Source: Peribacillus asahii (GTDB lineage: Bacteria; Bacillota; Bacilli; Bacillales; DSM-1321). From it: DNA of 64,000 bases. The position numbers were made by a program, and so were the translations under genes. A model generated the notes under the pieces. It did not search any database, was not told where the DNA came from, and worked only from the letters and a program-made list of their open reading frames with translations. Below are positions 47,025-47,588 of this stretch, one piece after another; the stretch's first letter is position 1; the number at the start of each line of letters is the position of its first letter. The stretch spans positions 1,040,001-1,104,000 of the forward strand of contig NZ_CP026095.1 of the NCBI RefSeq assembly GCF_004006295.1, in the 5' to 3' direction.

Positions 47025-47151
47025 TGTATTTCTCTCCTTTGTCATATTAAAATAATATTTAACTTTATGTTCATGTATGGTTAAATAATGGTGAAATATA
47101 GTTTTATTTTACAGTGTATGTTGATTGTAAAAGAATATGATTATGACAAAT

Positions 47152-47203
47152 ATGTGAAGTCTCGCACATACTTATTGAAAAAACAGTATTTATCCGATAT
47201 AGT
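47152..47203 (+). promoter_or_regulatory. roxS copy 1 promoter with Rex-like site
   Basis: ATGTG, eight bases, CACAT (47152-47169) has the geometry of a Rex box. Five bases later comes a -35 TTGAAA (47175-47180), 17 bases, and a -10 TATAGT (47198-47203). In B. subtilis roxS is controlled by ResD and Rex. Copy 2 has the same layout. Confidence 0.75.
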
Positions 47204-47209
47204 ACAGAT

Positions 47210-47326
47210 ATGAAATAAATCACTACAAACTTATACCCCTTTGTTTGCATGTGAAATTTCTCCCATCCCCTTTGTTCGTATGAATAGATAAAAAGCCATG
47301 TAAATCATAGATTTACATGGCTTTTT
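47210..47326 (+). ncRNA. roxS: RoxS/RsaE small regulatory RNA, copy 1
   Basis: About 117 nt from the promoter to the terminator. The body matches the RsaE/RoxS consensus: TGAAATAAATCAC at the 5' end, ACCCCTTTGTTTG (47235-47247), GTGAAATTTCTCCCATCCCC (47251-47270) and CCTTTGTTCG after it. The two C-rich loops pair with Shine-Dalgarno regions of targets in S. aureus and B. subtilis, adjusting central metabolism to NADH/NO status. The terminator is AAAAGCCATGTAAAT, CATAG, ATTTACATGGCTTTT. Lying between pepF and spxH (yjbH) agrees with the expected location. Confidence 0.9.
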
Positions 47327-47420
47327 CGTTAGATACAGCGTTTGTAAAATAGGAAATAGAGAAGGGGGGATTACTGTTATACAATATATAAATATAATAA
47401 GTGAACGTTTTGTATATTTT

Positions 47421-47473
47421 TTGTGAAATTACACACAAACTACTTGATAAACGGTCTTGTTTTCTGTTATATT
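47421..47473 (+). promoter_or_regulatory. roxS copy 2 promoter with Rex-like site
   Basis: TTGTGAAATTACACACAA (47421-47438) is close to the Rex consensus TTGTGAAWWWWTTCACAA. After 5 bases come TTGATA (47444-47449), 18 bases and TATATT (47468-47473). The site-to-promoter spacing equals that of copy 1. Confidence 0.75.
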
Positions 47474-47479
47474 TATTGT

Positions 47480-47588
47480 GAAATGAATCTCAAACAAACT
47501 CATACCTTTTTGTTTAATTGTGAAAGATTTCTCCTACCCCTTATTTTCTATACAATGGCCATGCATATAAGATGTATGGCTCTTTATT
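47480..47588 (+). ncRNA. RoxS/RsaE-like small RNA, copy 2 (diverged)
   Basis: The second unit repeats the layout of copy 1 about 270 bases downstream: TGAAATGAATCTC, AAACTCATACCTTTTTGTTTA, TTGTGAAAGATTTCTCCTACCCC, then a terminator hairpin GCCATGCAT, ATAAG, ATGTATGGC with TCTTTATTT. The first C-rich loop (ACCCCTTTG) has lost its run of C (ACCTTTTTG), while the second keeps TCTCC-TACCCC. It would therefore have a partly different target set. RNA identity rests on the alignment with copy 1. Confidence 0.75.

Follow-up and report, generated by a model that had tools for sequence, protein, structure and literature searches.

Two tandem RoxS/RsaE-type small RNA genes lie on the plus strand of the window (the whole 64,000-nucleotide stretch of Peribacillus asahii DNA analysed here). 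They are flanked by a 62-codon ORF that follows a pepF-like gene and by a spxH/yjbH-like gene on the opposite strand. Judging by the B. subtilis locus, the ORF is presumably yizD-like, and we take the spxH/yjbH-like neighbour to be the same as at the roxS/rsaE locus of the known systems. Both units match the RsaE covariance model (RF01820) over its full length (model positions 1-112): the upstream copy, U, at 47210-47327 with 77.4 bits (E 5.3e-13), and the downstream copy, D, at 47478-47585 with 57.8 bits (E 7.4e-9). The copies start 268 bases apart, in agreement with the original prediction of two RoxS/RsaE units about 270 bases apart, and the second of these does match the RsaE model. The Rfam gathering score for this family, the curated annotation cut-off, is 79 bits; U misses it by 1.6 bits and D lies well below it, so a default Rfam scan names neither copy. 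The sole Rfam match above cut-off in the window is a c-di-AMP riboswitch (RF00379; 12-154, plus strand, 77.3 bits). A covariance search of the 4.9-Mb genome yielded no third RsaE copy at E ≤ 0.001. A chance origin of the two matches was rejected on the basis of their E-values and their recurrence across the genus.

Each copy is preceded by a predicted promoter on the plus strand. For U (47175-47203) this comprises a -35 TTGAAA from 47175, 17 bases and a -10 TATAGT ending at 47203; for D (47444-47473), a -35 TTGATA from 47444, 18 bases and a -10 TATATT ending at 47473. The promoter scan by itself is weak, with 8 sites found against 5.1 expected. An inverted repeat ends 5 bases before the -35 in both copies, and the order of elements is thus as originally described: an 18-bp repeat, 5 bases, the -35, 17 or 18 bases, the -10 and the RNA body. 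A hairpin terminator had also been proposed for each copy. The 3' end of U indeed forms a strong hairpin (fold z -6.9 versus shuffles), though it is absent from the terminator list; that of D (47557-47581, plus strand, supported by both terminator scan and fold) is weaker and has an interrupted T run. Window D as a whole folds moderately (z -2.2 versus shuffles), with a better value for the D copy of P. asahii MA001 (z -4.0). The latter strain, as which we take genome G002, is the nearest relative used for comparisons, and the window's spxH protein shares 98% identity with its counterpart there. Alignment with MA001 also reveals an 11-base insertion in the D promoter region (47408-47418, plus strand), directly 5' of the inverted repeat of D.

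The two RNA bodies differ in their C-rich regions (CRRs). U contains the 5' hairpin, CRR1 (47236-47239), CRR2 and CRR3 (47262-47269) and the terminator, confirming that the first copy keeps its C-rich loops. The first loop reads ACCCCTTTG in U and ACCTTTTTG in D (47504-47512), so that the C run of CRR1 has been lost from the second copy, as noted previously. The second loop of D had likewise been described as changed; this is true of CRR2 (CCAUCCCC to CCUACCCC), while CRR3 is kept (CCCC, 47537-47540). Loss of CRR1 is restricted to the D copies of the two P. asahii genomes, a C run at this place being kept, by alignment, in all 21 D copies of the P. simplex group. From sequence features we file U as RoxS on the grounds of locus, structure and a full set of CRRs, its shortfall from the cut-off notwithstanding, and D as a divergent RoxS-derived paralogue rather than a full member.

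A RoxS match was found in all 36 Peribacillus genomes, with two copies no more than 2 kb apart in 28 of them and one copy in the other 8; in 31 of the 36 at least one copy scores above 79 bits. The predicted duplication of the small RNA is borne out by this copy-number comparison, and the idea that the pair is unique to the window's genome was rejected. The window's arrangement is shared by 23 of the 28 pairs, all in P. asahii and the P. simplex group. Seven genomes from other genera of the family gave one RoxS match each. Across the order sample, a match was present in 248 of 397 genomes; two matches outside the genus occurred in five (G188, G336, G343, G382 and G408), and side-by-side pairs outside Peribacillus in three genomes only, all of one genus, under stricter filters with which weak second copies may be lost. 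These three (G188, G343 and G382; L078-L083) have tandem RoxS-like copies 373-480 bases apart that score 51-59 bits. In G336 a compact 84-base RoxS-like RNA (L084, G336:C23:360626-360709; 38 bits) with CRR1-like and CRR3-like motifs and a terminator occurs in addition to a normal RoxS. Four Peribacillus genomes (G001, G003, G021 and G031; L072, L069, L071 and L070, respectively) have a third RoxS-like copy on the opposite strand, separated from the pair by approximately 77 kb (38-83 bits); these third copies group with D copies in the copy tree and have a degraded start box. A literature search, covering mostly titles and the openings of abstracts, met no description of a second RoxS/RsaE copy or of a Peribacillus case.

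A spxH tree built from 41 genomes unites P. asahii, the P. simplex group and G011 in one clade (support 100/98), all members of which have pairs. G031 (no match) and G034 (a 73-residue fragment) are outside this tree and were placed in the simplex group by their copy sequences; in G031 the spxH match is absent beside the RoxS pair (L026), within the 3.1 kb examined. The copy tree joins window U with simplex U (90/74) and window D with simplex D (89/85), although a separate duplication in P. asahii is not rejected by an AU test (p 0.295). Both copies carry signatures of their own: TATAGTACAGA at the start of 23/23 clade U copies and CCCCTTATTT at CRR3 of 23/23 D copies, each seen in 0/55 single copies. 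A single duplication is the simplest reading, most likely a tandem one that preceded the split between P. asahii and the P. simplex group. The pairs of G032 and of G009, G010 and G022 may represent separate duplication events.

The inverted repeats upstream of the promoters are ATGTGAAGTCTCGCACAT for U (47152-47169, plus strand; 4 mismatches to the Rex consensus, Rex/Fnr/ResD-type) and TTGTGAAATTACACACAA for D (47421-47438, plus strand; 2 mismatches). The element as a whole consists of TGACAA, then TTGTGAA, then a right arm at 4-base spacing. The TGACAA 5' of U (47144-47149, plus strand) is conserved order-wide in the consensus of 41 single-copy promoters and, on the model of B. subtilis, probably belongs to the ResD region near -65. 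A right arm with at most 2 mismatches occurs in 91% of the 23 clade U copies, 96% of the 23 clade D copies and 88% of the 8 genus single copies, versus 37% of the 41 order single copies. In a spacing control, the repeat averaged 3.17 mismatches at spacing 4, compared with 4.39-5.98 at other spacings except for 3.73 at spacing 15. This control used 41 of 47 single-copy promoters, six being left out for having over 1 mismatch even in the best-matching left half; under the same rule the start-box row used 30 of the 47. Fnr and ResD sites resemble Rex-type repeats, and the Rex pattern at 2 mismatches is near background in the genome (66 sites, versus 51 for a control pattern), so sequence alone cannot name the binder of the upstream repeat. 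Judged by its conservation, it is a real element, to which Rex, ResD or Fnr might bind. Of the four best genomic Rex-pattern sites, three (L138, L139 and L141) have no obvious fermentation genes close by, as judged from ORFs inspected by eye without homology search.

The original prediction assigned each copy its own Rex-like box on the strength of these upstream repeats. Their conservation and Rex-type spacing agree with that assignment; however, the predicted Rex site of B. subtilis roxS is placed directly 3' of the transcription start (PMC5419742), a position that the prediction did not name. Rex is reported to shift a roxS promoter fragment in vitro, and deletion of rex to raise RoxS levels in B. 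subtilis (PMC5419742). Activation of roxS by ResD is also described in this organism, with a conserved 8-base sequence near -65 pointed to (PMC4409812). Rex is encoded in the window's genome. At the start of the RNAs, a box of the form TTGTGAA-N4-TTCACAA keeps both arms in 47 single-copy promoters, with a mean of 2.51 mismatches (range 1-4). The putative start-site operator of U, ATATGAAATAAATCACTA (47208-47225, plus strand), appears eroded, with 4 mismatches, whereas that of D, TTGTGAAATGAATCTCAA (47476-47493, plus strand), has 2, and 1 in MA001. By itself, the D box at 2 mismatches is a weak match, given the genome background quoted above. The difference between the copies is nevertheless consistent: across the 23 P. 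asahii and simplex genomes, start-box mismatches number 4-7 in U and 1-2 in D (23/23 each), even though the count takes the offset with fewest mismatches, a choice that favours U.

A pattern for the start box, widened (TC[AT]CA) so that window D counts, is found in 23/23 D copies, 0/23 U copies, 1/55 single copies and 7/10 copies of the genus's other pairs. The D copies also have the TTGTGAA left arm, which goes beyond what the RNA hairpin needs, in 23/23 cases versus 1/55 single copies. The arms of the box are one base closer together in each of the 21 simplex U copies; arm spacing was set to 5 in four U copies by alignment, where a pattern accepting CTC gave 3. The hairpin around CRR1, which is formed from the same bases, persists in U: the mean number of predicted pairs is 17.6 in U, 14.2 in D and 14.9 in 40 single copies, with 14 in the two P. 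asahii U copies and 17-18 in simplex U. This argues that the simplex group lost the operator and not the RNA. Loss of the U operator is firmest in this group (5-7 mismatches), since P. asahii U has 4 mismatches, a number also reached by 3/47 single-copy promoters (G074, G104 and G037) and by the genus single copy of G033. The other five pairs of the genus lack the U/D split; in four of them the box is present in U and D alike, and in G032 it is D that has lost it. In the G032 pair (L032, G032:C2:915946-916257), where the downstream copy is without a start box, the sucC start region ACAAAGGGGG matches the ancestral CRR3. As the start-site Rex box separates the copies, the earlier suggestion that both had kept redox control is doubtful for U.

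RoxS/RsaE is characterised by induction with NO or malate and by repression of sucCD and ppnKB; for the two window copies, target pairing was predicted. We compared the predicted targets of the two copies using 60 start regions, namely the 57 predicted starts of the window plus sucC, nadK2 and citZ. The pairing score was a home-made measure of duplex plus accessibility rather than IntaRNA, with U truncated to 85 bases and D to 80. A known RoxS target, sucC, ranked first of 60 for both copies (U -15.8, D -14.3; -13.9 when D is taken at 85 bases). The second NAD kinase gene, nadK2, a candidate for ppnKB, ranked fourth for U and tenth for D, and citZ pairing was weak (ranks 9 and 14). For the window's own NAD kinase gene, yjbN, U pairs weakly at the ribosome-binding site (-6.5) and D elsewhere (-9.1). 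Over the 60 starts, the energies of U and D correlate at 0.72. In both P. asahii genomes the sucC start region includes AAATAAGGGG, which is exactly complementary to 10 bases of the CRR3 of D; the 40 other family genomes with a sucC match all lack it, and one of the 43 genomes gave no match. This suggests that the sucC site and the CRR3 of D have co-changed in P. asahii, as a post hoc observation on one gene at which U pairs too. For RoxS of B. subtilis, CRR3 rather than CRR1 is stressed (PMC5419742, PMC10433868). With sucC ranked first for both copies and CRR1, not CRR3, being the region lost in D, the proposal that targets have begun to split is weakly supported.

Both RNAs are constrained in the simplex group, since their divergence lies far below that of the spacer: over the first 75 bases in 21 genomes, the mean difference per site is 0.055 for U and 0.044 for D, compared with 0.412 for the spacer and 0.166 for the stretch 5' of U. 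Between the window and MA001, U has 0/118 changes and D 6/108 (Fisher p 0.011), and 54/675 third codon positions differ. U is significantly slower than third codon positions (p 5e-5); D is no slower than these (p 0.23), though slower than intergenic sequence (p 0.009). The predicted hairpin of window D is also less stable, at -6.2 versus -11.3 kcal/mol in MA001. With no change in U but six in D, relaxation of the latter is suspected, and D in P. asahii may be relaxed or changing.

We propose that U and D would be two separate transcripts, each driven by a promoter and ended by a terminator of its own, and that both retain the upstream redox element. With its start operator apparently lost, U would be synthesised as long as the upstream activator (ResD, by analogy) permits, largely without NADH gating. 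D, with its start operator retained and presumably occupied by Rex, would be released at high NADH. Both RNAs would act mainly via CRR3 on ribosome-binding sites, for example that of sucC. Given shared action through CRR3, the difference in control would be expected to provide a basal supply together with an NADH-triggered boost. In P. asahii, D is additionally short of CRR1 and of some hairpin strength; without CRR1, it might escape a RosA-like sponge. That the tandem pair consists of a U copy largely freed from Rex/NADH gating and a Rex-gated D copy with shared targets is, in our estimation, evenly balanced between right and wrong. We are more doubtful of a selective origin, which can only be put forward tentatively: selection would have removed the hairpin-overlapping operator from one copy while keeping the hairpin (longer in the simplex group) and sharpened the operator in the other, giving a Rex-free basal and an NADH-gated form with shared targets, the P. 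asahii sucC site having moved to match the D-type CRR3 too.

The excess of changes in D could also mean that this copy is relaxing under weak selection and has partly decayed in P. asahii, whether transcribed or silent, and that U does the work. The length of the branch leading to D in the copy tree (0.43), the loss of CRR1, the operator mismatch that window D has in addition to that of MA001, the weakened hairpin with a modest fold z and a rate no slower than that of third positions would all fit such decay. However, D still changes more slowly than intergenic sequence, its CRR3 and promoter hexamers are intact in both P. asahii genomes, pairing with sucC is retained and, across the simplex group, D is under constraint and more canonical than U. 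We consider decay of D unlikely on balance.

Two further explanations for the pair concern its targets and its upstream repeat. D may have been retuned to mRNAs pairing with CCCCUUAUUU, with CRR1 dispensable and U left on the ancestral targets. The D-specific motif at CRR3, the lower rank of nadK2 for D and the 10-base complement at sucC in P. asahii agree with this division, but sucC is the top candidate for both copies and somewhat better with U, the CRR1 C run persists in 21/21 simplex D copies, and the pairing energies of U and D are correlated; a split of targets is accordingly improbable to us. Alternatively, Rex might control both copies via the upstream repeat, the start box being a by-product of the RNA hairpin. 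The palindrome has Rex spacing and its right arm is well conserved in U, D and genus single copies alike, and that this repeat might itself bind Rex is a point against a split in control between U and D. Control of both copies by this route is nonetheless hard to reconcile with the downstream position given for the B. subtilis Rex site (PMC5419742), with a TTGTGAA left arm in D that exceeds the needs of the hairpin, and with the 4 mismatches in the repeat of window U, and we give it very little credence.

The pair resembles RoxS of B. subtilis and RsaE of S. aureus (RF01820) in its covariance match, C-rich regions, hairpin, terminator, spxH/yjbH-like neighbour, upstream element and Rex box at the start. 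It differs from these in being two tandem copies, both below the Rfam cut-off, with the U operator apparently eroded and the CRR1 of D lost. LhrC sRNAs have C-rich pairing motifs. LhrC1-5 of Listeria monocytogenes likewise form a multi-copy sRNA family in a Gram-positive organism, but belong to another family, reported to be activated via LisR and not Rex (PMC5880928). PrrF1/PrrF2, OmrA/OmrB and AbcR1/AbcR2 are described as related sRNA genes that lie next to each other and are in part redundant in function, and the same review names differential regulation as one route to non-redundancy of sibling sRNAs (PMC4211561). These are of other families and phyla, whereas the Peribacillus pair differs in a repressor operator that overlaps the 5' hairpin of the RNA.

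By the sequence comparisons made here, a known sRNA is truly duplicated in tandem, the pair is common to most of a genus, and a difference in the putative start operator is conserved between its copies. In Bacillus and Staphylococcus, RoxS couples central metabolism to the NADH/NAD balance, and a pair whose copies differ in the presumed Rex operator would uncouple two inputs, the upstream activator and Rex, that are joined in one B. subtilis promoter. Operator and RNA structure share their bases, and the 23 paired genomes allow the two to be distinguished; the pair also makes the retention of sibling sRNAs a testable question.
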